Part shown: positions 23,109-52,644 of the stretch, one piece after another
Position numbering within the stretch: position 1 is the first letter of the stretch
Layout of the letters: each line of letters opens with the position of its first letter
DNA from: Halomonadaceae bacterium T82-2
GTDB taxonomy: Bacteria; Pseudomonadota; Gammaproteobacteria; Pseudomonadales; Halomonadaceae
Direction of reading: 5' to 3'
NCBI GenBank assembly: GCA_001577635.1
Contig: LSBP01000001.1
Coordinates: 186,001 to 250,000 of the forward strand
Length of the DNA stretch: 64,000 nt
Translations under genes and position numbers: made by a program
Notes under the pieces: generated by a model
Told to the model about the DNA's origin: nothing
Databases searched by the model: none
The model's input: the letters and a program-made list of their open reading frames with translations, nothing else

Positions 23109-23857
23109 GTCGCCCTCGTCGTGACAGCCTCGCCTGCCCGGCAACCCCGGACAGACGAGCCCTTGAATCAATTACCCTGGCCTTCATCGATACCGGGACT
23201 GCCTCGACAGGCTTCCGACACAACGAGGCCTCGGAAGGGCGAGCGGGGAATGCCGGCGTCACCGCCACCCGGGTCTCGACAGGGCCGCCGCAAGTTCATG
23301 GCATCTTCAGAACGTATCGCGACATCCACGACACCCAACCTAGAATACCAGCTTATCGTCTTTCAAATGAACATAGACCAATGTTCTATCAGCACCTTGC
23401 GTTAGACTATTTGCCTACCCCGAAACGGCTATACCATCGTTCTATGCTCAGCCCCCTTTCAAAGACCCACCGCCGAAAACGACACCCAACCATTTGATAA
23501 AAAACAGAAAATTGAAAACGTTTTTTCACCCTTTCATTTTATAATACCAAAGTATGGGATTTTATTTTTTCCGACTGTTGACCACTATTGCCTACGCAAC
23601 CGGACACCGCGACCCTTTCCGAGTTCCATGAAAAACACAGGTTTCATGACAGCGGAAAACGCTTCCCGTCGCGACAATAAACAAGACCGCCAGGGAGACC
23701 TTTTCTTGGCATGAATCGTCACTATTCTGACGCTCCATTGCCATCCAATGGTCGAGAGCAAATGGCATGACGAGCAAGGAGAGCCAGGTTCCCCGCCGGA
23801 CCTGAATTCCCCTCGAGGCCATATCTTCCTAATTACAAGCACGCGGAGAGCACCACC
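23109..23857. promoter_or_regulatory. Control region between DUF294 and DUF4212-actP
   Basis: This is 749 bases without a credible gene and clearly richer in A+T than the rest of the window, especially 23460-23580. It holds two related 13-base motifs (ACCAATGTTCTAT at 23377, ACCATCGTTCTAT at 23433), a perfect plus-strand -10 TATAAT (23540-23545), an imperfect palindrome GAAAACGTTTTTTC, and a possible minus-strand -10 TATTCT (23342-23347). The first motif resembles a site ahead of acs. The long untranslated leader of over 300 bases before DUF4212 may hide further control. Confidence 0.65.
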
Positions 23858-24118
23858 ATGGCAGAAGAAAAAAGCAACGCGGAGGCCTACTGGAAGGCCA
23901 ACCTTCGCCTGATCACCGGCTGCCTGATCGTCTGGGCACTGGTGTCCTACGGCTTCGCCATCCTGCTGCGCCCCATGCTGGCCGGCATCCCTGTCGGCGG
24001 CACCGACCTGGGCTTCTGGTTCGCCCAGCAGGGTTCCATCCTGACGTTCATTGGCCTGATCTTCTTCTACGCCTGGAAGATGAACCGGCTGGACAAGCAA
24101 TACGGACTCGGGGAGTAA
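23858..24118 (+). CDS. DUF4212 membrane protein, acetate symporter partner
   Basis: An 86-residue protein with two transmembrane helices (about 19-38 and 53-70) and the conserved AYWKANLRLI start. DUF4212 proteins are encoded directly before VC_2705-type solute:sodium symporters, as here, with 6 bases to the next gene, and are taken to be small subunits. GGAGAG lies ahead of the ATG. Confidence 0.92.
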   Translation: MAEEKSNAEAYWKANLRLITGCLIVWALVSYGFAILLRPMLAGIPVGGTDLGFWFAQQGSILTFIGLIFFYAWKMNRLDKQYGLGE

Positions 24119-24124
24119 GCCAGC

Positions 24125-25906
24125 ATGAGTCAGTTCGCGATCAACGTTCTCTTCGTCGGCGCTTCCTTTGCCCTCTACATCGGCATCGCCATCTGGGCCA
24201 AGGCCGGGTCGACCAAGGACTTCTACGTCGCTGGGGGCGGGGTGCACCCGGTCACCAACGGCATGGCGATCGGCGCCGACTGGATGTCGGCGGCCTCGTT
24301 CATCTCCATGGCCGGCCTCATCGCCGCCGGCGGCTACGCCAACTCCACCTTCCTGATGGGCTGGACGGGCGGCTACGTGCTGCTGGCCATGCTGCTGGCC
24401 CCCTACCTGCGCAAGTTCGGCAAGTTCACGGTGCCGGAATTCATCGGTGACCGCTTCTACAGCCGCACGGCGCGCATGGTGGCGGTGGTCTGCCTGATCG
24501 TGGCCTCGGTGACCTATGTCATCGGCCAGATGGCCGGTGCCGGCGTGGCCTTCTCGCGCTTCCTGGAAGTCGACGCGACCACCGGCCTGATCATCGCCGC
24601 CATCGTGGTGTTCTTCTATTCGGTGCTGGGCGGCATGAAGGGCATCACCTACACCCAGGTGGCCCAGTACATCGTGTTGATCATCGCCTACACCATCCCG
24701 GCGGTGTTCATCTCGCTGCAACTGACCGACAACCCGATACCGGCCCTGGGCCTGTTCTCCGACCACACCGCCTCCGGCGAGCCGCTGCTGTCCAAGCTCA
24801 ACGAGGTGGTCACCGCGCTGGGCTTCAACTCCTACACGGGCATGGTCGACAACAAGCTCAACATGGTGCTGTTCACCCTGTCGCTGATGATCGGTACCGC
24901 CGGCCTGCCCCACGTCATCATGCGCTTCTTCACCGTGCCCAAGGTGGCCGATGCGCGCTGGTCCGCCGGCTGGGCGCTGGTGTTCATCGGTCTGCTCTAC
25001 CTGACCGCACCGGCCGTGGCCTCCATGGCACGCCTGAACCTGATGACCACCATCTACCCGGACATGGCCGGCCAGGTCGAGAACTACGACGCCGCGGCCG
25101 CCGACTCCATCGCCTATGCGGATCGCCCCAACTGGATCCGTACCTGGGAGGAAACCGGGCTGATCACCTTCGAGGACAAGAACAACGACGGCAAGATCCA
25201 GTTCTACAACCCCTCCGCCGACTTCTCCGATCGCGGCTGGAAGGGCAACGAACTGACCGTCAACAATGACATCCTGGTGCTGGCCAACCCGGAAATCGCC
25301 AACCTGCCCGGCTGGGTGATCGGCCTGATCGCCGCGGGCGGCCTGGCAGCGGCGCTGTCCACCGCCGCCGGTCTGCTGCTGGCAATCTCCTCGGCGATCA
25401 GCCACGACCTGATCAAGGGGGCCATCAACCCCAACATCACCGAAAAGGGCGAACTGCTGGCGGCGCGCATCTCGATGTCGGTAGCCATCGTCGTCGCCAC
25501 CTATCTCGGTGCCAACCCGCCGGGGTTCGCCGCCCAGGTGGTGGCCCTGGCCTTCGGCATCGCCGCCGCCTCGCTGTTCCCGGTGCTGATGATGGGGATC
25601 TTCTCCAAGCGGGTGAACAACAAGGGGGCCATCGCCGGCATGCTTTCCGGCCTGATCTTCACCCTGGTGTACATCTTCGTCTACAAGGGCTGGTTCTTCA
25701 TTCCGGGCACCAACAACCTGGCAGACACCCCGGCCAACTGGGTGATGGGCATCTCGCCGCTGTCGATCGGTGCCGTGGGGGCGATCATCAACTTCGCCGT
25801 GGCCTACGCCGTCTCCAACGCGAGCGAGCAACCGCCGCAGGAGATCCAGGACCTGGTGGAAAGCGTGCGCTATCCCAAGGGTGCTGGTGGGGCCGTCGAC
25901 CACTGA
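24125..25906 (+). CDS. actP: Cation/acetate symporter (SSS family, ActP-like)
   Basis: A 593-residue sodium:solute symporter with about 13 transmembrane helices. Typical SSS segments are visible, including DWMSAASFISMAGL (about 55-68) and GLAAALSTAAGLLLAISSA (about 410-430). A hydrophilic insert lies near 310-385. It matches the VC_2705 subfamily of acetate/monocarboxylate symporters. It forms an operon with DUF4212 and lies near acs and a CrbS/CrbR-type sensor pair, which supports acetate as the substrate. Confidence 0.9.
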   Translation: MSQFAINVLFVGASFALYIGIAIWAKAGSTKDFYVAGGGVHPVTNGMAIGADWMSAASFISMAGLIAAGGYANSTFLMGWTGGYVLLAMLLAPYLRKFGKFTVPEFIGDRFYSRTARMVAVVCLIVASVTYVIGQMAGAGVAFSRFLEVDATTGLIIAAIVVFFYSVLGGMKGITYTQVAQYIVLIIAYTIPAVFISLQLTDNPIPALGLFSDHTASGEPLLSKLNEVVTALGFNSYTGMVDNKLNMVLFTLSLMIGTAGLPHVIMRFFTVPKVADARWSAGWALVFIGLLYLTAPAVASMARLNLMTTIYPDMAGQVENYDAAAADSIAYADRPNWIRTWEETGLITFEDKNNDGKIQFYNPSADFSDRGWKGNELTVNNDILVLANPEIANLPGWVIGLIAAGGLAAALSTAAGLLLAISSAISHDLIKGAINPNITEKGELLAARISMSVAIVVATYLGANPPGFAAQVVALAFGIAAASLFPVLMMGIFSKRVNNKGAIAGMLSGLIFTLVYIFVYKGWFFIPGTNNLADTPANWVMGISPLSIGAVGAIINFAVAYAVSNASEQPPQEIQDLVESVRYPKGAGGAVDH

Positions 25907-25958
25907 GCCATAATGGCCCTTCGGCCCGGCTGGCCCGGGCCGCGGGATCACACTTCAT

Positions 25959-25983
25959 CGGGCTTCCTGCGGGAAGCCCGTTT
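25959..25983 (+). terminator. Terminator of DUF4212-actP
   Basis: CGGGCTTCC and GGAAGCCCG form a perfect 9-bp stem around TGCG, followed by TTTGCGTCTT. A second hairpin (CGGCCCGG / CCGGGCCG) lies about 30 bases earlier. Confidence 0.75.
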
Positions 25984-26004
25984 GCGTCTTGACAAGGGAA
26001 CGAC

Positions 26005-26520
26005 ATGCTTTGGCAACTGATCGCGGCGATCTTCGCCGGTCTCGGCGCCGCGGGGATCGGCCTGATCCTGCGACAACTCAGCGGCAAGCGCCTGCCGCGC
26101 TGGATCGTGCCGGCGCTGGGCGGGCTGGGGATGCTCGCCTACCAGATCCACTACGAATACACCTGGTTCGACAACAAGCAGGCCCGACTGCCGGCATCCG
26201 CACAGGTGGTCTCGAAGCAGAAGGAGCGGATGTTCTGGCGCCCCTGGACCTACATCGCCCCCCTGACCACCGGCTTCGACGTCATCGACCGCGACAATCT
26301 CGTCACCCGGCATGCAGACGGCGAGCGCCTCGTCGAGTTCATTCTCTACCACTTCGAGCGCCAGCCTGCCGACCAGGTCTCGCACCATGGCTACCTGCTC
26401 AACTGCGACGCCCGGGACCTGGTGCCGCTGGCCGACAAGACACAGCAGCCGCAGACGCAGTCGATGCGTCACCTCGAGACCTCGGCACCGCTCTACCGGG
26501 CCCTCTGCGCCGGCAGCTGA
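26005..26520 (+). CDS. Conserved protein of unknown function near the CrbS kinase
   Basis: A 171-residue protein with an N-terminal hydrophobic helix (about 3-23), a second hydrophobic stretch (34-47) and a soluble C-terminal part rich in aromatic residues (FWRPWTYIAPLTTGFDVID). Probably an inner-membrane protein; no catalytic motif seen and no family recognised with certainty. The ribosome site GGGAAC precedes ATG 26005. It sits between actP and the sensor kinase gene on the same strand, after the actP terminator, so it may be transcribed with the kinase. Confidence 0.8.
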   Translation: MLWQLIAAIFAGLGAAGIGLILRQLSGKRLPRWIVPALGGLGMLAYQIHYEYTWFDNKQARLPASAQVVSKQKERMFWRPWTYIAPLTTGFDVIDRDNLVTRHADGERLVEFILYHFERQPADQVSHHGYLLNCDARDLVPLADKTQQPQTQSMRHLETSAPLYRALCAGS

Positions 26521-26616
26521 GGCGCTTCTCCACGCATACCGCGAACCCGGCACGGCCATGACTGCCCTCGTGCCGGGCATTCCCCTAGAATGGCGGCAAA
26601 CCAAGGGGGAGTGTCC

Positions 26617-30570
<3,954 letters not shown>

Positions 30571-30576
30571 CGGCCG

Positions 30577-30594
30577 CCTGCCCGATTGGGCAGG
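30577..30594 (+). terminator. Hairpin after the sensor kinase gene
   Basis: CCTGCCC and GGGCAGG pair around GATT, 7 bases past the kinase stop codon. No T tract, so termination is uncertain. Confidence 0.5.
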
Positions 30595-30644
30595 GCGCGC
30601 GCCCCCGGTTACCCTGAAGACACCAGGTCAACCGGGGCGGCGGC

Positions 30645-31925
30645 ATGGGTACCACGCTTTCCGACGACACCCTGCGTGCCAGGGCGCGTCGTGCACTGGC
30701 CGGCCGGCCCCGGGGATGGGGCTGGACGGTCTTCTTCGGCCCGGCGCTGATCGCCGCGGTCGCCTATATCGATCCCGGCAACTTCGCCACCAACATCGAG
30801 GCCGGCTCGCGCTACGGCTATGCCTTGCTGTGGGTGGTGCTCGCCGCCAACCTGATGGCGATGCTGATCCAGTCGCTGTCGGCGCGTCTGGGCCTGGCCA
30901 CGGGCCGCAACCTGCCCGAGGTGATCCGCGAGCGCTACCCGCGGCCGGTAGTCTGGCTTTACTGGGTCCAGGCGGAGATCGTCGCCATCGCCACCGACCT
31001 GGCCGAATTCCTGGGCGCGGCGCTGGCCTTCCACCTGCTCTTCGGCCTGACCCTGCTCGAGGGTGCCCTGCTCACCGGCGCCATCACCTACCTGACGCTG
31101 CTGCTCTACCGCTACGGCTTCCGCCTCATGGAGCTGATCATCGGCGCCATGATCCTGGCCGTGGCCAGCGGCTTCCTGCTGGAGATGCTGCTCGGCCGGC
31201 CGGCGCCGCGCCCCTTCCTCGAGGGCCTGCTGATTCCCGGCTTCCCCGACGGCTATGCCCTCTACCTGGCGGCCGGCATCCTCGGCGCCACGGTGATGCC
31301 CCACGTCATCTACCTGCACTCGGCGCTGCTGCAGCGGCGCATCCCGGCCGACGACGACGACCAGCGCCGTCGCCTGATGCGCTATTCCCGGCTCGATGTC
31401 ATCGTCGGCATGGCCATCGCCGGGCTGATCAACCTGAGCATCCTGGCGCTGGCCGCGGCGGCCTTTCATGCCCAGGGGCGCACCGGCGTCGCCACCATCC
31501 GCGACAGCTACCAGCTGCTGGCCCCGATGCTCGGCCGGGAGCTGGCCAGCCACCTGTTCGGCGCCGCCCTGCTGCTGGCCGGCCTCTCCTCGTCGGTGGT
31601 CGGCACCCTCTCCGGCCAGGTGATCATGCAGGGGTTCGTGCGCTTCACCATCCCGCTGTGGCTGCGGCGCGTTGTCACCATGGCCCCGGCAATCGCGGTG
31701 ATCCTGCTCGGCATCTCGGAGCAGCGCGCCCTGGTGGCCAGCCAGGTGATCCTGAGCTTCGGCATCCCCTTCGCGCTGATTCCGCTGCTGACCTTCACCG
31801 CCGACCGCCGGCTGATGGGCAACCTGGTCAACTCGCGGGCGATCACCCTGATCGGTGGCCTGGTCTGTGCGCTGATCATTGCCCTGAACGGCTATGTACT
31901 GGTCTTTTCCCTGCTGCCGCACTGA
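30645..31925 (+). CDS. mntH: Nramp family Mn(II)/divalent metal transporter
   Basis: A 426-residue, roughly 11-helix inner-membrane proton-coupled metal importer. Metal-binding motifs are DPGN in helix 1 (about 43-46) and MPHVIYLHS in helix 6 (about 222-230), both as in E. coli MntH. It is unrelated by function to the acetate genes around it and is set between the sensor kinase and its response regulator. No Fur or MntR site was recognised in the 74 bases upstream. Confidence 0.9.
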   Translation: MGTTLSDDTLRARARRALAGRPRGWGWTVFFGPALIAAVAYIDPGNFATNIEAGSRYGYALLWVVLAANLMAMLIQSLSARLGLATGRNLPEVIRERYPRPVVWLYWVQAEIVAIATDLAEFLGAALAFHLLFGLTLLEGALLTGAITYLTLLLYRYGFRLMELIIGAMILAVASGFLLEMLLGRPAPRPFLEGLLIPGFPDGYALYLAAGILGATVMPHVIYLHSALLQRRIPADDDDQRRRLMRYSRLDVIVGMAIAGLINLSILALAAAAFHAQGRTGVATIRDSYQLLAPMLGRELASHLFGAALLLAGLSSSVVGTLSGQVIMQGFVRFTIPLWLRRVVTMAPAIAVILLGISEQRALVASQVILSFGIPFALIPLLTFTADRRLMGNLVNSRAITLIGGLVCALIIALNGYVLVFSLLPH

Positions 31926-31958
31926 CACGACGCCGTTACCCCCGGGCCACAAACGACG

Positions 31959-31980
31959 ACGCCGCCCCGGAGGGCGGCGT
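31959..31980. terminator. Bidirectional terminator mntH / crbR
   Basis: ACGCCGCCC and GGGCGGCGT form a perfect 9-bp stem around CGGA between convergent genes. Confidence 0.7.
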
Positions 31981-32009
31981 GCGCAGGACGACGAACCGAT
32001 GGCGAGGCG

Positions 32010-32672
32010 TCAGGACTCGACCTTGGGCGGCTCCACCTCGAGCTTCTGGGCGGCGATCACCGCCTGGGTGCGCGAGTGGACCCCCAGCTTGCGGAGGATG
32101 GCCGTGACGTGCGCCTTGATGGTCGCCTCGCTGACGTTGAGCTCGAAGGCGATCTGCTTGTTGAGCAGCCCCTCGGTGAGCATGTTGAGCACCCGGAACT
32201 GCTGCGGGGTCAGCGACGCGATCGCCTCGGCGAAGCGGGTGTCCTCCTCGTCGGACTCGCCGATCGCCTTGGCGAGGTCTTCGGGCAGCCAGATCTCGCC
32301 GTCGAGGATCTCGCCGACCGCCTCGGCGATGACCGTCAGCGAGGCCGACTTGGGAATGAAGCCCGAGGCGCCGTAATCGATGGCGCGCCGCACCACATGC
32401 GGCTCGTCGCTGCCGGAGATCACCGCCACGGGGATTTCCGGGGTCTGACCACGCAGCTGGATCAGTCCCGAAAAGCCATGCGCGCCCGGCATGTGCAGAT
32501 CGAGCAGGATCAGGTCGGCATCGGGATGCCGGGTCACTACCTCGGTGGTCGCTTCCATGGTATCGGATTCGACAATCTCGGCCTGCGGGGCAACTTGTCG
32601 CAACGCCTGGGTCAGGGCTGCTCGGAACAGCGGGTGATCATCGGCGACGATGAATTTCTGGGCAAAGGCCAT
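32010..32672 (-). CDS. crbR: LuxR-type response regulator (CrbR type)
   Basis: A 220-residue NarL/FixJ-family regulator. The receiver domain has the acidic pocket ADDH near the N-terminus, phosphoacceptor D58 in LLDLHMPG and K in FIPKSAS. The LuxR helix-turn-helix lies near 150-205 (LTPQQFRVLNML, ATIKAHVTAILRKL). It is the likely partner of the hybrid kinase at 26617 and lies just downstream of acs on the same strand, but behind the acs terminator. GGAGGAG stands before the ATG. Confidence 0.93.
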   Translation of the reverse strand: MAFAQKFIVADDHPLFRAALTQALRQVAPQAEIVESDTMEATTEVVTRHPDADLILLDLHMPGAHGFSGLIQLRGQTPEIPVAVISGSDEPHVVRRAIDYGASGFIPKSASLTVIAEAVGEILDGEIWLPEDLAKAIGESDEEDTRFAEAIASLTPQQFRVLNMLTEGLLNKQIAFELNVSEATIKAHVTAILRKLGVHSRTQAVIAAQKLEVEPPKVES

Positions 32673-32830
32673 TGAGTCTCCTCCGGATCCTCCTGCAGCG
32701 AGCTGCCACGCCGACGGGTCGACCCCACCGGCGCCAGGCTTGCCGCCTTTTTCGTGTCTGGCATGTTACCCCATGCCCGTGCCGTTTCCCAAGCGCCGTC
32801 ATCCCTCGAGACGAATACCGTTGACGCCAC

Positions 32831-32856
32831 GAAAAAGCCGGCCATGAAGGCCGGCG
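32831..32856 (-). terminator. Intrinsic terminator of acs
   Basis: On the minus strand GCCGGCC-TTCAT-GGCCGGC is followed directly by TTTTT, the best rho-independent terminator in the window. Closer to the acs stop a second, wider inverted repeat (CCGGTGTCGG at 32864, CCGACACCGG at 32930) encloses about 56 bases. Confidence 0.9.
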
Positions 32857-32947
32857 TGAAGCTCCGGTGTCGGCGTGCCGCTGGCGTGCGCTCCCGAACG
32901 CCGAGACAGGCAGGCGAACGGGAAGAACACCGACACCGGCGGGACAA

Positions 32948-34900
<1,953 letters not shown>

Positions 34901-34997
34901 GTCGACCCCCTGTCCTGGAAACTGCGATGGTCGTGATTCGGACCTTGGCGGCCGCGTGGCCGGTGACCCGAGATCGGCGAATAAAAATGGTCCTTTC

Positions 34998-35042
34998 AGC
35001 ATATACCCACAGCGGGCGGGGCTCCCAATTAGACATTGGTAG
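34998..35042 (-). promoter_or_regulatory. Candidate regulated promoter of acs
   Basis: On the minus strand CTACCAATGTCTAAT (35028-35042) precedes a -10-like TATGCT (34998-35003, overlapping TATATG) by about 35 bases, a spacing expected for an activator bound near -45. Similar motifs occur ahead of actP/DUF294 and of the 45-residue gene at 52426. Confidence 0.5.
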
Positions 35043-35081
35043 CAGCAATTTTCATTGCCATTTCAGAAACTTACCCGACCC

Positions 35082-36348: not shown

Positions 36349-36359
36349 ACCAGCGTCTC

Positions 36360-41591: not shown

Positions 41592-41647
41592 GCGGAAGGT
41601 CCTTGTTCAGCGGGAGACGGCGCCGGACGCCCCGGCGCGGCGGGTAT

Positions 41648-42346
41648 TCAGGCGCCGGGCTTGGGCTTTTTCCAGGCGACCTCGTTGCGCAGGTAGACCG
41701 GCACCGCCTCGTGGGGCGGCCGACCCTCGCCGCGGGCGAATGCCTCGGCAGCCAGGCGCACCATCGACTCGGCGGCCGGGTCGAGTTCCGGCAGGCGTTG
41801 GTACAGGGCGTTCTGGACCTCGACGGACATCGACTCCCACAGCATCCAGCCCGAACCCACGCCGCACCAGTCGGCCTCGCGATGCGACTCGGGCAGGGCC
41901 AGGCGCTCGGGCGGCATCACCGCCTCGTCGAGCAGCGTCGTCAGGTGCCCGTCCCGGCAGTGATAGGCGGCGACATAGATCTCGCCCATGCGGGCGTCCA
42001 GCGCCGGGACCACGAAGCGCACATGGCGTTCACGGTGCACCGCCAGCGCCAGCGCCTCGAGGGTGGAGACGCCGATCAGCGGCTTGTCGAGGCCGAACGC
42101 CAGCCCCTGGGCGACCCCGGCGGCGATGCGCAGGCCGGTGAAGGAACCGGGGCCGCGCCCGTAGGCCAGGGCATCGAGATCGGCGACGGCCAGCCCGGCC
42201 TCGGCGAGTACGTCATCGATCATCGGCAGCAGGCGGCGGGTGTGCTCGCGCGGGGTCAGCGCAAAGCGCGACACCACTTCCCCCTCGTGCCAGAGGGCAC
42301 AGGAACAGGCGCTCGAGGAGGCGTCCAGAGCCAGCAGGGTCGACAT
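41648..42346 (-). CDS. tsaB: tRNA threonylcarbamoyladenosine biosynthesis protein TsaB
   Basis: A 232-residue ASKHA-fold protein, partner of TsaD in making t6A37 of t[20 protein letters not shown] and [15 protein letters not shown] are the family signatures. The upstream 19 in-frame codons are left out because the family begins at MSTLLA. Full length and intact. Confidence 0.95.
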
Positions 42347-42455
42347 GGGAATCACGGGGTTATGAATGGCGCGGGCATTATACGACCGGGGCGGGCCTGG
42401 CAAAAGCGGCGGCCGGCGAGGCCCCGGGCTATTACAGATAGCTGCGACATGACTC

Positions 42456-42596
42456 GGGCTGATCCGTTGGCAGGTCTGCGAGGGGCGCTGTGAACCCCTC
42501 CATGGGCGCTACCTACGCCATCCATGGCGTAGGACCCCCCTCTTCAACCTGCCCCCGGCGCCCTTGTCAGAGCCAACGGCGATTGCTCTGCCGACG
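42456..42596 (+). repeat. Dispersed intergenic repeat, copy 2
   Basis: Close copy of the element at 7541-7680, in the same orientation. The hairpin CCTACGCCAT / ATGGCGTAGG occupies 42512-42533. It fills most of the gap between tsaB and adk (42347-42661), which otherwise contains only the adk terminator. Confidence 0.85.
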
Positions 42597-42612
42597 AGGC
42601 CGGCAACGCAAC

Positions 42613-42633
42613 AGCCCGGCGGAGTGCCGGGCT
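42613..42633 (-). terminator. Terminator of adk
   Basis: AGCCCGGC and GCCGGGCT form an 8-bp stem around a 5-base loop, 28 bases past the adk stop. The following minus-strand bases (GTTGCGTTG) are only moderately T-rich. Confidence 0.65.
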
Positions 42634-42661
42634 GCGGATGAGCGAATGGGTGCAGGCGGTA

Positions 42662-43468
<807 letters not shown>

Positions 43469-43496
43469 TCATGATGTCGCAGGACGCGACTCACGC

Positions 43497-43865
43497 TCAG
43501 GTCAGGCGCTGCCAGAGCAGCACGCCCCAGGTCAGCCCGGCCATGATCAGCGACAGCATGACCGCCGCCGAGCCGATGTCCTTGGCGCGCCCGGAGAGCA
43601 CGTGGTGCTCGGGGCCGATGCGATCGACCACGGTTTCCAGGGCGCTGTTGAGCAGCTCCACCACCAGCACCAGCACACCGCTGCCCACCAGCAGCAGCCA
43701 CTCCACCGGCGTGCGCGCCAGCCAGCCGGCCAGCGGCAGCATCGCCAGGCACAGCAGCAGCTCCTGACGGAAGGCCGCCTCGTGACGAAACGCGGCCCGC
43801 AGCCCCTTCAGGGAATAGCGCGTCGATTGAATCAGGTGTCGCCAGCCTGTCTCGCGGGGCTTCAT
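43497..43865 (-). CDS. dgkA: Diacylglycerol kinase
   Basis: A 122-residue inner-membrane kinase with an amphipathic N-terminus and three transmembrane helices; ELLNSALETVVDR (about 70-82) and the KDIGSAAV segment are the active-site signatures. It recycles diacylglycerol to phosphatidic acid. GAGAG lies before ATG 43865. Confidence 0.95.
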   Translation of the reverse strand: MKPRETGWRHLIQSTRYSLKGLRAAFRHEAAFRQELLLCLAMLPLAGWLARTPVEWLLLVGSGVLVLVVELLNSALETVVDRIGPEHHVLSGRAKDIGSAAVMLSLIMAGLTWGVLLWQRLT

Positions 43866-44042
43866 GGGCACTCTCACAGGGCGATTCTCGGGGAGCCGCT
43901 CCGACGGGGCCGTGGCGGCCGCCGGCAGCATGAAGCGCCGATGGTAGCAGAGGCCCCGGGGCAGGCAAGCCGACCGATTGCCCGGCCCCACGGGGGCGAC
44001 TAGTCTGGGGTGATTCCGCCCCGCCGACTGGAGCCATACCCC

Positions 44043-45020
44043 ATGCCCCGCGTGCTGATGCTCAAGGACGAAGATCCCCGCGCCCGTGTCGAGACCGTCG
44101 ACGACGACCGCCTGCCCGAGCGCGAGGTCACGATCGACATCGACCATTCCGATCTCAACTACAAGGACGCCCTGGCGGTCACCGGCAAGGGCCGGATCGT
44201 CCGCGACTACCCCTTCGTGCCGGGCATCGACTTCGCCGGCACGGTGCGCGACAGCGCCAGCGACGCCTACGCCCCGGGCGACCGGGTGATCCTCACCGGC
44301 TGGGGCGTGGGCGAGCGCTACTGGGGCGGTTTCGCCGAGCGCATGCGGGTCGACGCCGACTGGCTGGTGCCCTGCCCCGAAGGACTTTCCTCCCGCGAGG
44401 CGATGCTGTTCGGCACCGCCGGGCTGAGTGCCATGCTCTGCGTGGAACGCCTCGAGGAGGCCGGCCTGGCCCGCGGCGCCAGCGTGCTGGTTACCGGGGC
44501 CACCGGCGGCGTGGGCAGCTGGGCGGTACAGATGCTCGCCCACTACGGCTACGAGGTGCACGCCGTCACCGGCAAGCCGGATCAGGAACGCTGGCTGCGC
44601 AGCCTGGGCGCCGCCGAGGTACACGACCGCACCGAGTTCGAGGGCGAGCCGCGCCTGCTCGACAAGGCCCGCTGGGCCGGGGCCATCGACACGGTCGGCG
44701 ACACCACCCTGGCCAATGTGCTCGCCCAGATGGAGCCCCACGGTCGGGTCGCCGCCGTGGGCCTGGCCGGCGGCAGCGCCCTGCCCGCTTCGGTGATGCC
44801 GTTCATCCTGCGCGGCGTGTCGCTGCTCGGCGTGGAAAGCGCCCGGGTCCCCGTGCCGCGGCGCCGCGACGTCTGGCAGCGCATCGCCGAGCTGCCCCGG
44901 GCGCTGCGCGAGGCCATGCACCACGAGGCGATCGGCCTGGAGATGATCGCCGAACGCGCCGAGGCGATGATCAACGGCGACATCCACGGCCGGCTGCTGA
45001 TCGACCCGAGCCTAGACTGA
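44043..45020 (+). CDS. acuI: MDR-type quinone/acrylyl-CoA reductase (YhdH/AcuI family)
   Basis: A 325-residue zinc-free medium-chain dehydrogenase. It has the YhdH/AcuI signature [14 protein letters not shown] (about 37-50) and the NADPH motif [14 protein letters not shown] (about 154-167). Characterised relatives reduce acryloyl-CoA to propionyl-CoA, which would fit a halophile that degrades DMSP, but no other DMSP genes are nearby, so the substrate is inferred. Confidence 0.85.
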
Positions 45021-45029
45021 GACATACCT

Positions 45030-45130
45030 CAGGGGAGGGCATCGGGCAGGCCGAGAGGAGGTCCTGCGCCAGGGACGGCGCAGGTAGCGCCCAGGGAAGG
45101 GTTCACAGCGCCTCCGGCCGGCCTGCCCGG
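45030..45130 (-). repeat. Dispersed intergenic repeat, copy 3 (diverged, inverted)
   Basis: On the minus strand it keeps GAGGCGCTGTGAACCC, GGCGCTACCT and the hairpin. The stem now reads CCTGCGCC / GGCGCAGG (45063-45084), so the A-to-G change in one arm is matched by T-to-C in the other. Confidence 0.75.
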
Positions 45131-45162
45131 CGCCTGAGCGCTTCGCGCAGCAACCGCTACAG

Positions 45163-45191
45163 TTGGGGCAAAGGGCGCTTTGCGCTAGAAT
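45163..45191 (+). promoter_or_regulatory. Promoter of epd-pgk-fba with operator-like palindrome
   Basis: -35 TTGGGG (45163-45168), 17-base spacer, -10 TAGAAT (45186-45191). The spacer is almost filled by an inverted repeat GCAAAG-N4-CTTTGC (45168-45183), well placed for a repressor. Confidence 0.6.
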
Positions 45192-45230
45192 CACCGCCTT
45201 CGAACGCCACCATCGCCGTCGAGCCCGCCC

Positions 45231-46253
45231 ATGCCCCATCGCATCGCCATCAACGGTTACGGCCGCATCGGCCAGTGCGTCCTGCGGGCACTGGTCGAGC
45301 GCCCCGAGCTGGATATCGAGGTGGTGGCGATCAACGAGCTCTCGGATCTCGCCACCGTCGCCTACCTGACCCGCTACGACACCACCCACGGGCGCTTCCC
45401 CGGCGAGGTGCGCGTCGCGGACGACCGGCTGCACATCAACGGCCACGCGATCGCCCTGCTCTGCGAGGAAGACCCCGCCAACCTGCCCTGGGCGGCGCTG
45501 GGCATCGACCTGGTGCTGGAATGCTCCGGCAGCTTCAAGGATCGCGCCACCGCCGAGCGCCACCTGGCCGCCGGGGCGCGGCGGCTGCTGTTCTCCCAGC
45601 CGGCCGAATCCGACGTCGACCTGACCGTGGTGGGCGGCATCAACGAGCACCTGCTCGCCGCCGACATGCGGGTGATCTCGGCGGCCTCCTGCACCACCAA
45701 CTGCCTGATCCCGATTCTCACCGTGCTCGACGAGGCGCTGGGCATCGAGCACGGCGTCACCACCACCATCCACTCGGCGATGAACGACCAGCCGGTGATC
45801 GACGCCTACCACAAGTCGGACCTGCGCCTGACCCGCTCGGCGATGCAGTCGATCATCCCCGTGGACACCGGCCTGGCGCGCGGCATCGAGCGCCTGATGC
45901 CGCACCTCGCCGGGCGCTTCGAGTGCCTGCACGTGCGGGTGCCGACCATCAACGTCTCGGCCATGGACATGGCCATCTCGGTGCGCCGGGCCACCACCGC
46001 CTCGGCCGTCAACGATCTGCTGCGCGAGGCCAGCCACGCGCGGCTCGCCGGCCGCCTCGGCTACACCGAGGAACCCATGGCCTCGGTCGACTTCAACCAC
46101 GATCCACGCTCGGGTATCGTGGACGCCACCCAGACACGGGTCGCCGGCGGCCACCTGATCAAGATGCTCGGCTGGTTCGACAACGAGTGGGGCTTCGCCA
46201 ACCGCATGCTCGATGTCGCCGGCCGCCTGGCGGAGCTCGACGCGCGGCGCTGA
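45231..46253 (+). CDS. epd: D-erythrose-4-phosphate dehydrogenase
   Basis: A 340-residue GAPDH-family enzyme; Epd makes 4-phosphoerythronate for pyridoxal phosphate synthesis. NAD motif INGYGRIG, catalytic C154 in [23 protein letters not shown] and [12 protein letters not shown]. It follows E. coli Epd more closely than GapA (NELSD, HSAMND, DFNHDP). It could also serve as a gluconeogenic GAPDH. First gene of epd-pgk-fba. Confidence 0.9.
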
Positions 46254-46316
46254 CACCGCCCCGGCGACCGCGGTGGACACCGGACATTCTGGATTCGTCA
46301 ACAGAGGATACGCCAC

Positions 46317-47480
46317 ATGAACGTGCGCAAGATGACCGACCTCCCTCTCGCCGGCCGGCGAGTGCTGATTCGAGAGGACCTCAACGTGCCGGTCAAGCAG
46401 GGCAACGTCACCTCGGATGCCCGTATCCGCGCCTGCCTGCCGACCATCCAGGCCGCCCGCGACGCCGGCGCCCGGGTGATGCTGATGAGCCACCTGGGAC
46501 GCCCCACCGAGGGCGAGCCCGCCGAGGAGTTCTCGCTGGCGCCGGTCGCCGCCCATCTCGGCCAGCTGCTCGGCCAGCCGGTACGGCTGGTCAGCGACTA
46601 TCTCGACGATCCGGTCGACGTGGCCGAAGGCGAGGTGGTACTGCTCGAGAACGTGCGCTTCAATGTCGGCGAGAAGAAGGACGACGAGACCCTGGCCAAG
46701 GCCTACGCGGCGCAGTGCGACGTCTACGTGATGGACGCCTTCGGCACCGCCCATCGCGCCCAGGCCTCCACCCACGGCGTGGCGCGCTTCGCCCCCGCCG
46801 CCTGCGCCGGCCCGCTGCTCGCCCAGGAACTCGAGGCGCTGGAGAAGGCGCTGGCCACCCCGGCACGGCCGATGGTCGCCATCGTCGGCGGCTCCAAGGT
46901 CTCGACCAAGCTCGAGGTGCTCAACGCCCTGGCCGAGAAGTGCGATCAGCTGATCGTCGGCGGCGGTATCGCCAACACCTTCATCGCCGCGGCCGGCCAC
47001 AACGTCGGCAAGTCGCTGCACGAGGCCGACCTGATCGAGCAGGCCAGGGCGCTGATGGCCCGGGTCGAGATCCCGCTGCCCACCGACGTGGTGGTCGCCA
47101 CCGAGTTCTCCGAATCCGCCGAGGCCGTGGTGCGCCCGGTCGACCAGGTGCGCGACGACGAGATGATCCTCGACATCGGCCCGGACACCGCCGCGCGCTT
47201 CGGCGGCCTGCTCAAGGACGCCGGCACCATTCTGTGGAACGGCCCCGTGGGCGTCTTCGAGATCGATCAGTTCGGCAAGGGCACCGAGGCGCTGTCCCGA
47301 GCAATCGCCGAGAGCAACGGCTTCTCCATCGCCGGCGGCGGCGACACCCTGGCGGCCATCGACAAGTACGGCATCGCCGAGCAGGTCTCTTACATCTCCA
47401 CCGGCGGCGGCGCCTTCCTCGAGTACGTGGAAGGCAAGACGCTGCCCGCCGTTGCAGCCCTCGAGGCCGCCGACCGCTAA
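46317..47480 (+). CDS. pgk: Phosphoglycerate kinase
   Basis: A 387-residue two-domain cytosolic enzyme of glycolysis and gluconeogenesis. [11 protein letters not shown] at the N-terminus, MSHLGRP (about 61-67), the hinge region, and nucleotide motifs LNGPVGVFE-like (WNGPVGVFE) and [15 protein letters not shown] lies upstream. It is 63 bases after epd. Confidence 0.97.
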
Positions 47481-47510
47481 CCCTGCAGCATTCACACAAC
47501 CATCATCACG

Positions 47511-47530
47511 GGGCGGCCCAGAGGCCGCCC
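47511..47530 (+). terminator. Hairpin between pgk and fba
   Basis: GGGCGGCC and GGCCGCCC pair around CAGA, followed by TTCG. It lies 30 bases past the pgk stop and 30 bases before fba, so it may only partly stop transcription and set the fba level. Confidence 0.5.
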
Positions 47531-47560
47531 TTCGACTGTCAGCGAGGAAACACACTCCCC

Positions 47561-48625
47561 ATGGCCCTGATCAGCCTGCGTCAACTTCTCGACCATGCCG
47601 CCGAGCACGGCTACGGCGTGCCGGCCTTCAACGTCAACAACCTCGAGCAGATGCGCGCCATCATGGAAGCCGCCGACCGCACCGATTCGCCGGTGATCGT
47701 CCAGGCCTCCGCCGGCGCCCGCAAGTATGCCGGGGCGCCCTTCCTGCGCCACCTGATCCTGGCCGCGATCGAGGAGTTCCCGCACATTCCGGTGGTCATG
47801 CATCAGGACCACGGCACCTCGCCCGCCGTCTGCCAGCGTTCCATCCAGCTGGGCTTCTCCTCGGTGATGATGGATGGCTCGCTGAAAGCCGACGGCAAGA
47901 CGCCCGCCGACTATGACTACAACGTCGATGTCACCCGGCGCACCGTCGAGATGGCCCACGCCTGCGGCGTCTCCGTCGAAGGCGAGCTGGGCTGCCTGGG
48001 CAGCCTGGAAACCGGCCAGGCCGGCGAGGAGGACGGCGTCGGTGCCGAGGGCACGTTGTCCCACGATCAGCTGCTCACCGACCCCGAGGAAGCGGCCGCC
48101 TTCGTCGCGGCGACCCACGTCGACGCCCTGGCGATCGCCATCGGCACCAGCCACGGCGCCTACAAGTTCACCCAGCCGCCCACCGGCGACACCCTCTCCA
48201 TCGCCCGCATCAAGCAGATCCACGAGCGTATCCCCAACACCCATCTGGTGATGCACGGCTCCAGCTCGGTGCCCCAGGAGTGGCTGGAGATCATCAACGA
48301 GTACGGCGGTCAGATTCCCGAGACCTACGGCGTGCCGGTCGAGGAGATCGTCGAGGGCATCAAGCACGGCGTGCGCAAGGTCAACATCGACACCGACCTG
48401 CGTCTGGCCTCCACCGGCGCGGTACGTCGCTTCCTCGCCCACAACCCGGCCGAGTTCGACCCGCGCAAGTACCTCAAGGAGACCGTCGCGGCCATGCGCG
48501 ATGTCTGCGTGGCCCGCTTCGAGGCCTTCGGCAGCGCCGGTAACGCCAGCCGGATCCAGCCGATCGGCCTGGAAGCGATGTTCGAGCGCTACGCGCGCGG
48601 CGAGCTCGACCCGCGGGTCAACTGA
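47561..48625 (+). CDS. fba: Class II fructose-bisphosphate aldolase
   Basis: A 354-residue zinc-dependent aldolase of the Calvin-cycle (CbbA-like) subgroup. Zinc ligand histidines in MHQDHGTS and in the MHGSSSVPQ segment; [12 protein letters not shown] carries the glutamate ligand region. It forms an operon with epd and pgk. Only a distant GAGGA (about 14 bases ahead) serves as ribosome site. Confidence 0.96.
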
Positions 48626-48641
48626 GCCCTTGCCACGCCGC

Positions 48642-48661
48642 GCCGCCGGGAAACCGGCGGC
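48642..48661 (+). terminator. GAAA-loop hairpin after fba
   Basis: GCCGCCGG and CCGGCGGC close a GAAA tetraloop 17 bases after the fba stop. No T tract follows. Confidence 0.6.
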
Positions 48662-48696
48662 CCCCATCGCCTTCCCCCTCGCCATCGAGGCCCGCC

Positions 48697-48996
48697 ATGC
48701 ACAACCTGATCGTTCCCTCCCTCGTCATCCTCATCGCCGCGGCGGTGATCTTCGGTGGCCAGGCCATCCAGGAGAGCCGGCTCGACGACCATATCGCCGA
48801 CGCCATCGCCGCCACGCTCGACAAGGACGCTGTCGAGGTGACCGCCATGCGCGAGGTCAACAAGGGCTACGGCATCTGCGGGCAATACCGCCTGCCCGGC
48901 GGCGAGCCGGCCGCCTTCTTCTACAACAAGGTCAACGAGCACCTGGCACTGGGCAGCGACTCCCGCCGCTACCGCAACAACTGCCGGACGCACTGA
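48697..48996 (+). CDS. Small exported or membrane-anchored protein, unknown
   Basis: A 99-residue protein with an N-terminal hydrophobic helix (about 4-20) and a soluble part with two cysteines (C61 in YGICGQY and C96 near the end) that could form a disulfide in the periplasm. The pattern ..GYGICGQYR....AFFYN resembles small conserved hypothetical proteins of related bacteria. No function can be given. Confidence 0.75.
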   Translation: MHNLIVPSLVILIAAAVIFGGQAIQESRLDDHIADAIAATLDKDAVEVTAMREVNKGYGICGQYRLPGGEPAAFFYNKVNEHLALGSDSRRYRNNCRTH

Positions 48997-49036
48997 TCCG
49001 CCTTCTATTTTTTGCAGCCACTCGCGAGGCGTTCCG

Positions 49037-49939
49037 ATGAGCATCCGACGCCAGACCGGCACGGCCAGCCTGATCGTCATTCTCACCGGCGCGCTCTGGG
49101 GCCTCTACTGGATTCCGGTGCGCCGCCTGGACGCGCTGCTTCCCGGCGCCTGGGGATCACTGCTGATCGTCGCCCTGGCGACGCTGCTGCTGTCCCCGTT
49201 CGCGGTGATCCATCGCCGCCGCCTGCGCGCCGCCGATCCGTGGTCGCTGGCGGCGATCGCGCTCGGCGGCGCGGCCTTCGTCATGTACTCGATCGGCCTG
49301 GTCCACGGCCGGGTCGCCACCGTGATCCTGCTGTTCTACCTGACGCCGGTGTGGAGCACGCTGATCGCGCGGCTGTGGCTGCGCTGGCCGACGCCCTGGC
49401 CTCGCTATGCGGCCATCGCGGTCGGCTTCGCCGGTCTCGCACTGGTGCTCGGTGACAACGGCACGCTGCCGCTGCCGCGCGGGGTCGGCGACTGGCTGGG
49501 GCTGGCGTCGGGCCTGCTGTGGGCGCTCTCCTCGACCGGCATCCGCCTGCGGGGCGAGACCACCGGCGCGATGGAGGGCAATTTCATCTTCTGTGCGGGC
49601 GCGACGCTGACCGCCGCGGCACTGGCGCCGTGGCTGTCGCCCTGGCCGGCCCTGCCGTCATCCCCGGAGTGGCCCACGCTGATCGGCTGGTCACTGGCCG
49701 CCGGCGGGCTGTGGTGGGCCCTGTCGCTGTCGGCCCTGTTGTGGGCCGCCACGCGCCTGGAACCGGCGCGCCTGGGTATCCTGCTGATGAGCGAGGTACT
49801 GGTCGGTGTGATCTCCGCGGCGCTGTTCGCCGGCGAGCCCTTCGGCCTGCAGGCCAGTCTGGGCGCACTGCTGGTAATCGCCGCGGCACTGCTCGAACTG
49901 TGGCCGATTTCGCGGGCAGGACAGGACACGCGCGTCTAG
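49037..49939 (+). CDS. DMT family transporter (EamA type)
   Basis: A 300-residue protein of about ten transmembrane helices, consisting of two EamA repeats (about 10-145 and 150-290). The substrate is not predictable. It is followed 44 bases later by a second EamA protein. Confidence 0.88.
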   Translation: MSIRRQTGTASLIVILTGALWGLYWIPVRRLDALLPGAWGSLLIVALATLLLSPFAVIHRRRLRAADPWSLAAIALGGAAFVMYSIGLVHGRVATVILLFYLTPVWSTLIARLWLRWPTPWPRYAAIAVGFAGLALVLGDNGTLPLPRGVGDWLGLASGLLWALSSTGIRLRGETTGAMEGNFIFCAGATLTAAALAPWLSPWPALPSSPEWPTLIGWSLAAGGLWWALSLSALLWAATRLEPARLGILLMSEVLVGVISAALFAGEPFGLQASLGALLVIAAALLELWPISRAGQDTRV

Positions 49940-49983
49940 GCTGACGGCACGCTACACGCCGTCAAACGACTCAAGGAGGAGTC

Positions 49984-50856
49984 ATGCAAAACGCGATAGG
50001 GCCCGCGCTGGTCATGCTCGCGGCCTTCCTGTGGGGTATTTCCGGCGGGCTCGCCGGCCTGCTCATGGACCACGACTGGAGCCCGGCCGTGGTCACATTC
50101 TACCGCGGCGCCGTCGGCCTGGTGTGCCTGCTGCTCGGCTGGCTGCCGCACACCGTCCGCCATGTCCGGCACATCAATCGCCGCCTGCTGGCCTGGGCGG
50201 TCCTGGCCGGACTGGGAGTCGCCGGCAACCTGACCTTCTACGCAATCGCCATCGACCGAACCAGCGTGGCGATCGCCGCGACGCTGATGTATACCGCGCC
50301 CGTCCACGTCTTCGCCGTCGCCTGCCTGACCGGCAACGAGCGCCCCACTCTGGGCAAGGGCCTGGCCATCGCGCTGGTGATGATCGGCATCGTCCTGCTC
50401 ACCGACGTGCTGGGCGGCGGCGGGCAGGCGGTCACGCTGGTCGGGGTAGCCGCCGGGCTCGCCTCGGCGCTCTCCTACGCGCTGTTCATCTTCGCCTTTC
50501 AGCGGTCCGCGGCCCACGGCGCCATGACCAGCACGCTGATCATCGCCTTTGCGGTCTTCAGTATCGTCCTCGGCCTGATCATGAATCGCGGCGAGGCCGT
50601 GCAGGCGCTGTACAGCAGCGACCTGCAGCTCTTCCTGCTGCTCGGACTGCTCGGTGCCGGGCTGTCATTCGCCGTCTACCTGCCGGGCCTGCGACGCACC
50701 CCGGCGACCATCGCCTCGATCGTCGCCATGATCGAGCCGGTCACCGCCGCCCTGTTCGGCCTGCTGGTACTCGGCGAGTCGCTGGACCTCGGTCAGGCAG
50801 CCGGGCTGGCGCTGATCGTCATCACGGTGACGGTGCTGAGCGCACGGCGACCCTGA
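49984..50856 (+). CDS. DMT family transporter (EamA type)
   Basis: A 290-residue, ten-helix protein with two EamA repeats; the end of the first shows AIDRTSVAIAATLMYTAPV and of the second VAMIEPVTAALFGLLVLGE. AAGGAGGAG precedes the ATG. It is not closely similar to the preceding EamA protein, so this is not a recent tandem duplication. Substrate unknown. Confidence 0.9.
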   Translation: MQNAIGPALVMLAAFLWGISGGLAGLLMDHDWSPAVVTFYRGAVGLVCLLLGWLPHTVRHVRHINRRLLAWAVLAGLGVAGNLTFYAIAIDRTSVAIAATLMYTAPVHVFAVACLTGNERPTLGKGLAIALVMIGIVLLTDVLGGGGQAVTLVGVAAGLASALSYALFIFAFQRSAAHGAMTSTLIIAFAVFSIVLGLIMNRGEAVQALYSSDLQLFLLLGLLGAGLSFAVYLPGLRRTPATIASIVAMIEPVTAALFGLLVLGESLDLGQAAGLALIVITVTVLSARRP

Positions 50857-50922
50857 CGAGGTGCGGCGGCGGCGGTTCGCCTGCTAAACTCTGCGCCCCC
50901 CGTCGCCGCCACCGGAGCCGTC

Positions 50923-52320
50923 ATGTCCGCCGATGCCCCCCGTCCATCGCCTCGCCACCTCGCCAGCCTGGCCACCCTCGTCGCGGTAGGGGCATTTCTG
51001 CTGCTGGTCCCGGGCGCGCCCGAGGTGACCCGGGCGGCAAGTGTCATCGTGCTGGCGATCGCCCTGTGGGCGACCGGCTGGCTGCCGCAGTGGCTGACCG
51101 CCCTGGCCTTCTTCACGCTGTGTACCGTCGCCGGCGTCGCTCCACCCGACACGGTCTTCGCCGGGTTCGCCTCGGCGGCGACCTGGCTGGTGTTTTCGGG
51201 ACTGGCGATCGGCGCGGCGATCCAGCACACCGGTCTGGGCGCCACCGTGGCGACACGGGTCGGCCCGCATCTTAGGGGATCCTACGCCGGGGCCGTGAGC
51301 GGCGTGGTGGCACTGGGCCTGGCCATGGCCTTCGTCATGCCCTCGGGCATGGGGCGCGTGGTGCTTTTGGTACCGATCCTGATCACCCTGGCCGACCATC
51401 TGGGCTATGCGGAGGGCCGCCCTGGGCGAACCGGCGTCATCCTCGGCGGCATCATGGGCACCTTCCTGCCCACCTACGCCATCCTGCCGGCCAATGTGCC
51501 CAACAACGTGCTGATGGGGGCGGTCGAGGCGGTGCTCGGCGAAGCGCCGACCTACAGCGCCTACCTGCTGCTGCACTTTCCCGTGCTCGGCGCCCTGAAG
51601 ACGGTGCTGTTGATCGCGGTAATGCTCAAGCTCTATCCCGACCACGCCCCCACACCCGGCGTCGCGGCGCCCGACAAGGCCACAGCCCCCCACACGCCGC
51701 TGAGTCGCCCGGAACGCCGCCTGGGCCTGCTGCTGCTGCTGGCGGTGGCGCTGTGGCTCAGTGACGCCTGGCACGGCATCTCGCCGGCCTGGATCGGTCT
51801 GGCGATCGCCCTGGCCTGCCTCTTCCCGGGCAGCGGCCTGATGGCCGAGCGGCCGATGAAATCCCTGAACTTCGAGCCGCTGATCTACGTTGCCGGCATC
51901 GTCAGCCTGGGCGCACTGGCCCATCATAGCGGGCTGGGCGAGCGGGTTGCGCATTACCTGCTGGCTGCGCTGCCGCTGTCCGGCACCGGCGATGCCGCGA
52001 CCTTCGGCCTGCTGAGTGGCCTGGCCATGGTCCTGGGCACCTTCGTCACCCTGCCCGGCGTACCGGCGATCCTGACGCCCATGGCACCGGAACTGGCCGC
52101 GATCACCGGCTGGTCGCCGGATGCGGTCACCATGACGCAGGTAGTGGGGTTTTCCACGGTGCTGCTGCCCTATCAGGGGCCGCCGCTGGTGGTCGGGCTG
52201 CTGGCAGCGGGGCTGCGCCTGCGCGATGCGGCACGAGTGTGCCTGATCATGGCCGCCATCAGCCTGGTACTGCTGTGGCCGCTGGATTACCTGTGGTGGC
52301 AACTGCTGGGCTGGATCTAG
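50923..52320 (+). CDS. SLC13/DASS-type anion permease
   Basis: A 465-residue inner-membrane protein of about 12 helices. Conserved elements are the GLAIGAAIQHTGL segment, PSGMGRVVLLVP and LPANVPNN in the first half and TLPGVPAIL and LPYQGPPLVV in the second half, the two hairpin-motif regions of the family. Probable substrates are dicarboxylates, sulfate or similar anions, coupled to sodium. Confidence 0.85.
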   Translation: MSADAPRPSPRHLASLATLVAVGAFLLLVPGAPEVTRAASVIVLAIALWATGWLPQWLTALAFFTLCTVAGVAPPDTVFAGFASAATWLVFSGLAIGAAIQHTGLGATVATRVGPHLRGSYAGAVSGVVALGLAMAFVMPSGMGRVVLLVPILITLADHLGYAEGRPGRTGVILGGIMGTFLPTYAILPANVPNNVLMGAVEAVLGEAPTYSAYLLLHFPVLGALKTVLLIAVMLKLYPDHAPTPGVAAPDKATAPHTPLSRPERRLGLLLLLAVALWLSDAWHGISPAWIGLAIALACLFPGSGLMAERPMKSLNFEPLIYVAGIVSLGALAHHSGLGERVAHYLLAALPLSGTGDAATFGLLSGLAMVLGTFVTLPGVPAILTPMAPELAAITGWSPDAVTMTQVVGFSTVLLPYQGPPLVVGLLAAGLRLRDAARVCLIMAAISLVLLWPLDYLWWQLLGWI

Positions 52321-52395
52321 CAAACGACACGAATGTGCCGGGCCAGGTCGGGAAAAGACGGGAAAGGGAGGAAGGCAGAAAGGGAAGGAGGGCAG

Positions 52396-52413
52396 GCGCC
52401 GCCGAAGCGGCGC
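52396..52413 (-). terminator. UUCG-loop terminator of the 45-residue gene
   Basis: On the minus strand GCGCCGC and GCGGCGC close a TTCG tetraloop, followed by a pyrimidine-rich run (CTGCCCTCCTTCCCTTTC). It stands 12 bases past the small gene. Confidence 0.75.
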
Positions 52414-52425
52414 GACGCACAGGCA

Positions 52426-52563
52426 TCAGTCGATGCCGTAGAGTCCCATCATCTGCCGACGGTAGCCTTCATAGGCACTCTCGGTCATGCGCTCGAGCAG
52501 GCGATAGGCCGAGCGGCCAAGACGACGGGACAGGGATTGGCGGGAAGCGGTCTGGGTTGTCAT
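52426..52563 (-). CDS. 45-residue basic small protein, unknown
   Basis: Translation gives a protein beginning MTTQTASRQSLSRRLGR and ending MMGLYGID. It is rich in arginine and serine with a likely amphipathic helix in the middle (about 14-38) and no hydrophobic segment. Support for its reality: GAGG about 8 bases before the ATG, a UUCG-type terminator right after the stop, and an upstream region with two regulator-like motifs 20 bases apart and a -10 CATACT (52595-52600). No family recognised. Confidence 0.65.
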   Translation of the reverse strand: MTTQTASRQSLSRRLGRSAYRLLERMTESAYEGYRRQMMGLYGID

Positions 52564-52608
52564 GCGAGAACCTCGGTCGGTGACGTGTCCCGACAGTATG
52601 CCATGACG

Positions 52609-52644
52609 TTAGACTTTGGTCTAATTCGTACGACTTTCGCCTAA
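52609..52644 (-). promoter_or_regulatory. Tandem regulator sites upstream of the small gene
   Basis: On the minus strand TTAGGCGAAAGTC and TTAGACCAAAGTC lie 20 bases apart, two helical turns. The second is also a perfect palindrome, TTAGAC-N4-GTCTAA. Its ACCAAAGTCTAA differs at one of twelve positions from the ACCAATGTCTAA ahead of acs. Confidence 0.6.

Follow-up and report, generated by a model that had tools for sequence, protein, structure and literature searches.

What joins the acetate gene acs, the actP/DUF294 gene cluster and an anonymous 45-codon gene that share one short DNA word upstream of their coding sequences? The word recurs in a 64,000-nucleotide stretch of the genome of Halomonadaceae bacterium T82-2 (contig LSBP01000001.1, positions 186,001 to 250,000), hereafter called the window, where an earlier sequence-only reading had taken it for a binding site of the acetate regulator CrbR and had put this forward as a new inference. 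All strings quoted in that reading are present, including those at 23377, 23433 and 59474. Its two 13-mers, ACCAATGTCTAAT upstream of acs (35028-35040, minus strand) and ACCAAAGTCTAAC upstream of the 45-residue open reading frame (52608-52620, minus strand), are real elements, yet each is part of a longer palindrome that had been missed. As judged from its sequence, the repeated word is the ACTU motif, the known binding motif of CrbR, and the site was therefore already published. According to the accessible parts of that report, the ACTU motif is an imperfect 17-bp palindrome that CrbR needs to activate acs in Pseudomonas fluorescens, where it occupies positions −52 to −36; point mutations in it lower or abolish acs promoter activity, activation of acs by CrbR in Escherichia coli depends on an intact motif, and the P. 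fluorescens CrbR targets that were tested are activated (Sepulveda and Lupas, 2017; PMC5715377). One of the sites listed there, TACTACCAAAGTCTAAT, and the acs site of the window differ at 2 of 17 positions. As discussed below, a CrbR regulon in Halomonadaceae is very probably the best explanation of these observations as a whole; conservation and identity with the ACTU motif bring acs, actP/DUF294 and the small gene into it, whereas two elements of the original proposal, a site upstream of cstA and a half-repeat near acs, are not established.

Sites were scored with a matrix built from 11 of the 23 rows of the published table (PMC5715377), none of which is a Halomonadaceae site, and were followed through 121 Halomonadaceae genomes representing 24 genera. 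A further matrix, built on Halomonadaceae sites, would be circular for acs and for the small gene, and the case for these two makes no use of it. Among 4000 clean genic windows of 310 bp used as controls, 61 reached a score of 10, 6 reached 14 and none reached 16; the corresponding counts among 2360 resampled upstream regions were 112, 11 and 3. The top scores in the window were 21.5 (small gene), 17.4 (acs), 14.3 (second copy at the small gene), 12.7 (position 23429) and 12.6 (position 59469). Maxima in ten resampled windows ranged from 9.3 to 15.6, with two above 12, and the last two sites are thus not significant by score alone. Matches to the consensus with at most two mismatches numbered 3 in the window compared with 0.60 expected, a count reached in 1 of 100 shuffles.

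First, the motif is conserved upstream of acs across the family, the check that had been suggested for the original proposal. Excluding one genome whose locus lies near a contig end (G086), we scored 30 returned acs loci and 87 of 88 others, and 117 of 117 upstream regions reached at least 10; in three of the 121 genomes no acs gene matched at the E 1e-60 threshold. In the first 30 loci, 30 scored at least 10 and 25 at least 14, and in the other 87 (windows of 354–450 bp) the numbers reaching 10, 12 and 14 were 87, 79 and 64. In 114 of 117 cases the ACTU core lay on the same strand as acs (the exceptions being loci L167, L236 and L237), compared with 7 of 2340 resamples. At some loci (L065–L068, for example) a distal palindrome scores best, and the core site adjacent to the promoter scores 10–12. 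The predicted −35 element of acs in the window is TTGGGA (35028-35023), the predicted −10 element is TATATG or TATGCT (35005-34998), and the start codon, on homologue support, is probably an ATG near 34900. In 28 of 30 promoters the palindrome ends 23–25 nt ahead of TATGCT or TATCCT, and in 28 of 30 the predicted site centre falls between −43.5 and −45.5, or about 2 less if the −10 element is TATATG. The motif thus ends at the predicted −35 element, matching the published placement just upstream of −35.

Tandem copies had been claimed at both acs and the small gene. The small-gene copy stands, with its score of 14.3, whereas the proposed acs half-repeat, GGCAATGAAA, is present as a string but lies in a region scoring −5.9 or less and is missing from most aligned acs promoters of relatives, one that retains it being G062 (Acs 97% identical). 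A different palindrome resembling AGACCTTGGTCT occurs about 190–215 bp before the acs start at loci L051–L074; in 18 of 30 loci it precedes the acs core site by 67–81 bp, and the genome of the window lacks it. Where a stop codon was found, this palindrome is at the end of a preceding SprT-like gene and may reflect coding conservation only.

Second, the site of the small gene is conserved with its gene and is placed differently from that of acs, a feature that the sequence-only reading had overlooked. Within 310 bp upstream of the small-gene homologues, 29 of 29 regions scored at least 10, 28 at least 14 and 22 at least 18. The predicted site centre is at −28.5 or −29.5 in 25 of the 29, which is not the acs-type placement. 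In 28 of 29 promoters the palindrome ends 8 nt (19 promoters) or 9 nt (9 promoters) before a −10-like hexamer, and in 26 of these 28 its left half matches TTGACA at 4 of 6 positions with 17–18-bp spacing. A partner site scoring at least 10 is found 19–20 bp upstream of the main palindrome in 9 promoters, and one lies 14 bp downstream, over the −10 element, in 8 (6 in genus g2 and 2 in genus g20); at locus L026 the 20-bp pair is present, with its main site left unassigned by the script. A strict pattern of the small-gene arrangement matched in 16 of 121 genomes and in no control; of these matches, 13 belong to the small gene, two precede a BCCT transporter gene (genus g11) and the remaining one is near a histidine-phosphatase gene. 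At the two BCCT loci (L327 and L328, positions ~1500–1730), the palindrome is followed after 8 nt by TATACT, and directly after this arrangement comes a short hairpin with a T run, resembling an early terminator. In the window, the immediate upstream neighbour of the small gene, in the same orientation, is a DUF4235 gene (52673-52999, minus strand).

The small gene itself encodes a lineage-restricted orphan, which had also gone unnoticed. Homologues at E ≤ 0.01 were present in 29 of 121 genomes and 6 of 24 genera, and a profile search separated the same number of genomes (29 at E ≤ 1e-15) from the next match, at 0.012. A scan of named genomes gave 10 loci, in Halomonas elongata, H. eurihalina, H. 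organivorans, H. cerina, Halomonas sp. EAR18, Modicisalibacter coralii and four Chromohalobacter species, all with sites scoring at least 15.0 within 210 bp; these overlap with the 29, some sequences being identical. No Pfam family at E ≤ 10, no NCBIfam model at E ≤ 1 and no credible homologue among 369 genomes sampled class-wide was detected, and four partial matches outside the family (E 0.0026–0.0074, 13–22 residues) were judged to be chance. The proteins are 42–54 residues long, share the core KRxGxxAYRxLExMTESAYxGF and contain a strongly amphipathic basic segment, with 18-residue hydrophobic moments of 0.58–0.82 and net charges of +3 to +4 in three examples. Across the core codons of 27 sequences (L017 and L038 were omitted for want of an anchor or because of a deletion), the nonsynonymous difference proportion (pN) was below the synonymous one (pS) in 347 of 349 pairs, and the median pN/pS among closer pairs was 0.55.

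Third, the window encodes the regulatory pair itself. Pfam domains bear out the claim that a CrbR-type regulator and its kinase are encoded in the same block: the sensor combines SSF (E 3.6e-07), PAS, HisKA, HATPase_c and Response_reg domains, and the regulator a receiver and a GerE domain. A STAC linker model was not among the Pfam matches of the sensor, in searches that were not aimed at STAC. The best NCBIfam model for the regulator is ErdR (NF041830, kind 'exception') at 263.8 bits, below the cut-off of 390, which may have been set for Pseudomonas. One crbR match per genome was found in 121 of 121 family genomes (E ≤ 1e-60). Genomes G017 and G018 contain crbR and no acs match at E 1e-60, and CrbR may therefore do other work there. 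Coordinates are collected in the table.

Features of the window discussed in the text, with coordinates counted from its first letter
Feature	Coordinates	Strand	Basis or remark
DUF294/CBS/cNMP protein	21291..23171	-	Pfam; like PFLU5625/PP_0354 by domains only
Weaker ACTU-like site, 56 bp upstream of CTATACCATCGTTCTAT: ATAGACCAATGTTCTAT	23373..23389	+	score 6.8
ACTU-like site between DUF294 and DUF4212-actP: CTATACCATCGTTCTAT	23429..23445	+	score 12.7
DUF4212 protein	23858..24118	+	Pfam
actP-type sodium:solute symporter	24125..25906	+	Pfam SSF
CrbS-type sensor (symporter, PAS, HisKA, HATPase, receiver)	26590..30570	+	Pfam
CrbR-type response regulator (receiver, GerE)	32010..32672	-	Pfam
acs open reading frame	32948..35002	-	Pfam AMP-binding and ACAS_N
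Predicted acs core promoter	34998..35028	-	sequence, compared across 30 acs promoters
ACTU site of acs: TGCTACCAATGTCTAAT	35028..35044	-	score 17.4 (published matrix); conserved in relatives
45-residue orphan small protein	52426..52563	-	homologues in 29/121 family genomes; pN < pS
Predicted small-gene -10, CATACT, 8 nt past palindrome	52595..52600	-	sequence
Main ACTU palindrome of the 45-residue gene: TTAGACCAAAGTCTAA	52609..52624	-	score 21.5; site in 29/29 homologues
Second ACTU copy, centred 20 bp upstream of main palindrome	52629..52645	-	score 14.3
ACTU-like string ahead of cstA, unproven as a site	59469..59485	-	score 12.6

These arrangements suggest a mechanism. During acetate use CrbS, a symporter–kinase fusion, would phosphorylate CrbR, and phosphorylated CrbR would bind the ACTU palindrome. 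At acs, site position and precedent suggest that CrbR would activate from a site centred at about −44, immediately ahead of the predicted −35 element. The palindrome of the small gene covers the predicted −35 element (centre about −28.5), and there, on the simplest reading, CrbR would block RNA polymerase during acetate growth. We modestly favour such repression of the 45-residue gene, the direction of control being one that we infer from promoter geometry: the site covers the predicted core promoter, with both elements covered in some lineages, and there is precedent for repression by this type of regulator. In Pseudomonas aeruginosa, the accessible parts of one report state that electrophoretic mobility shift assays confirmed 13 of 15 ErdR promoters and that the majority of tested ErdR target genes, direct targets among them, rise when erdR is deleted (PMC9927353). 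More tentatively, and with somewhat less confidence than an even case would warrant, CrbR may be a dual regulator, with the position of its site deciding the sign: in one and the same acetate state it would activate acs from about −44 and shut off, from about −28, a small, amphipathic protein known from Halomonadaceae only, with accessory copies shifting between −48 and the −10 element among genera. If this is true, the small protein would be one that has to be absent during acetate growth.

Several points weigh against the main interpretation. Predicted −10 elements underlie both readings of the promoters, class II at acs and occlusion at the small gene, and the small-gene −35 hexamer was picked as the best of three spacings. 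Eleven of the 29 small-gene promoters have no partner at 19–20 or 13–14 bp by the scripted search, and the 20-bp upstream copies in 9 promoters would suit activation equally well. Two acs upstream regions (L236 and L237) contain weak sites only. Because crbR is universal in the family sample, it offers no crbR-free genome as a negative control. In Pseudomonas putida, moreover, the accessible text of one study reports that acsA-I has neither an ACTU motif nor ErdR binding (PMC8402216).

Among the alternatives, the one that survives best keeps the regulator and reverses its sign. PhoB activates pho promoters from a site that stands in for the −35 element, and CrbR might activate the small gene in the same manner, so that the small protein would be made together with Acs on acetate; we regard this as doubtful, if still a serious contender. 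The constant gap of 8–9 nt to the −10 element in 28 of 29 promoters resembles PhoB-type activation, in which the regulator site is ~10 nt upstream of −10, and the tandem upstream copies and the activated P. fluorescens targets in the accessible record point the same way. However, a T-GAC hexamer 17–18 bp from a good −10 element should need no activator, and the second copy over the −10 element in 8 promoters is hard to fit. PhoB itself belongs to a different regulator family and reads direct repeats, whereas the small-gene site is a palindrome. It is improbable that the small-gene site is recognised not by CrbR but by a different regulator that binds a similar palindrome, a GntR-type repressor for instance. 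Some ACTU-like sites of the genome do adjoin GntR genes, and the palindrome at the small gene has a higher symmetry than the site at acs, but a matrix of CrbR sites alone ranks the small-gene site first in the window, the site has ACTU-like partners at fixed offsets, and no other regulator was seen to travel with it, although this was not searched for systematically. Chance similarity within AT-rich intergenic DNA is next to inconceivable as the overall source of the recurrences, though it may still account for the cstA string. In its favour, the excess in the window alone is small and the scores at 23429 and 59469 are within the resampled range. For acs and the small gene it is refuted by conservation, set against the measured controls, at all 29 small genes and all 117 acs genes examined.

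Returning to the CrbR regulon, the sites between DUF294 and DUF4212-actP are supported by comparison with relatives. DUF4212 is present in 102 of 121 genomes; of 30 loci examined, 29 scored at least 12 within 900 bp upstream, a length beyond that of the measured controls, and a 300-bp scan had missed these actP sites. CTATACCATCGTTCTAT is one base off CTATACCATCGTCCTAT, which was found in 8 of 30 related loci, and ATAGACCAATGTTCTAT has a counterpart at 55–56 bp in five relatives (L094, L098 and L102–L104). Work on other genera, as far as the accessible parts of the reports go, describes ErdR binding to the actP-I, scpC and PP_0354 promoters of P. putida (PMC8402216), AcsR binding upstream of acsA in Vibrio vulnificus (PMC4409781) and an influence of MxtR/ErdR on growth on pyruvate (PMC9927547). 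We found no literature on CrbS/CrbR control of acetate use in Halomonas, in a search that left most subscription papers outside. A weak ACTU-like string, ATAATACCAAAGTATGG, is also present at 23541-23557 upstream of DUF4212 and recurs slightly altered in many relatives. The DUF294 gene is followed by an RNase_T exonuclease gene (20674-21294, minus strand), the same arrangement as in the available description of P. putida PP_0354/PP_0353.

Elsewhere in the 3.42-Mb genome, TNNKACYWWNGTCTAAW with at most one mismatch gave 13 matches at 12 places compared with 2 for the reversed pattern. Apart from acs and the small gene, sites lie near ppsA, near a CCG-domain gene that adjoins a GntR gene, and near genes for an acetyl-CoA hydrolase/transferase, proline dehydrogenase, sugar and TRAP transport, an AMP-binding ACAS_N enzyme, a FUSC-like protein and glycan synthesis; one is in an EAL/DctP neighbourhood. 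Acetyl-CoA hydrolase/transferase is the annotation class of PFLU0110, a target given in the accessible part of the published work (PMC5715377); its site scores 20.2 in the genome of the window, but only 8 of 13 gene-bearing loci score at least 10, at varied positions. The ppsA gene was found at threshold in 43 of 46 genomes, and 26 of the 30 loci compared retain TTAGAC(C/T/G)AATGG; a score of at least 10 under the published matrix is reached by 27 of 30, and one of at least 14 by only 8 of 30. The right half of this motif is off the consensus, but the same half recurs in second copies at the small gene (L034 and L042), and its sequence thus makes ppsA a likely further target of CrbR.

The regulon resembles the CrbS/CrbR (MxtR/ErdR) regulon of Pseudomonas and Vibrio (PMC5715377) in its palindrome, its type of regulator, the placement of the acs site just upstream of −35, and its acs, actP, DUF294/CBS-protein and acetyl-CoA hydrolase-class targets. 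It differs in that the accessible part of that report has no Halomonadaceae in its table and neither the small orphan gene nor ppsA among its targets, and in that the small-gene site covers the core promoter. Hence the motif and the system are known, and the new parts are the orphan small gene and a distinct promoter arrangement in another family. A defined acetate regulon would thereby extend to a whole family of halophiles with ppsA as a predicted gluconeogenic target, and an uncharacterised small protein would gain a regulator and a growth condition under which to seek its function. Two promoter arrangements under one regulator also offer a clean test of how the sign of a LuxR/NarL-type regulator depends on where its site lies.

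The string upstream of cstA, proposed as a site at 59474, fared less well. Counting the window, 8 of 21 cstA upstream regions reach 10 and 4 of 21 reach 12, above the control rate, but the string has no fixed place in relatives; we consider it unproven because the positions vary widely and no relative matches the window's site in place. Finally, locus L009 (C4:38645) contains two close ACTU-like strings in the gap separating the genes for a sugar-binding protein and a LamB porin.

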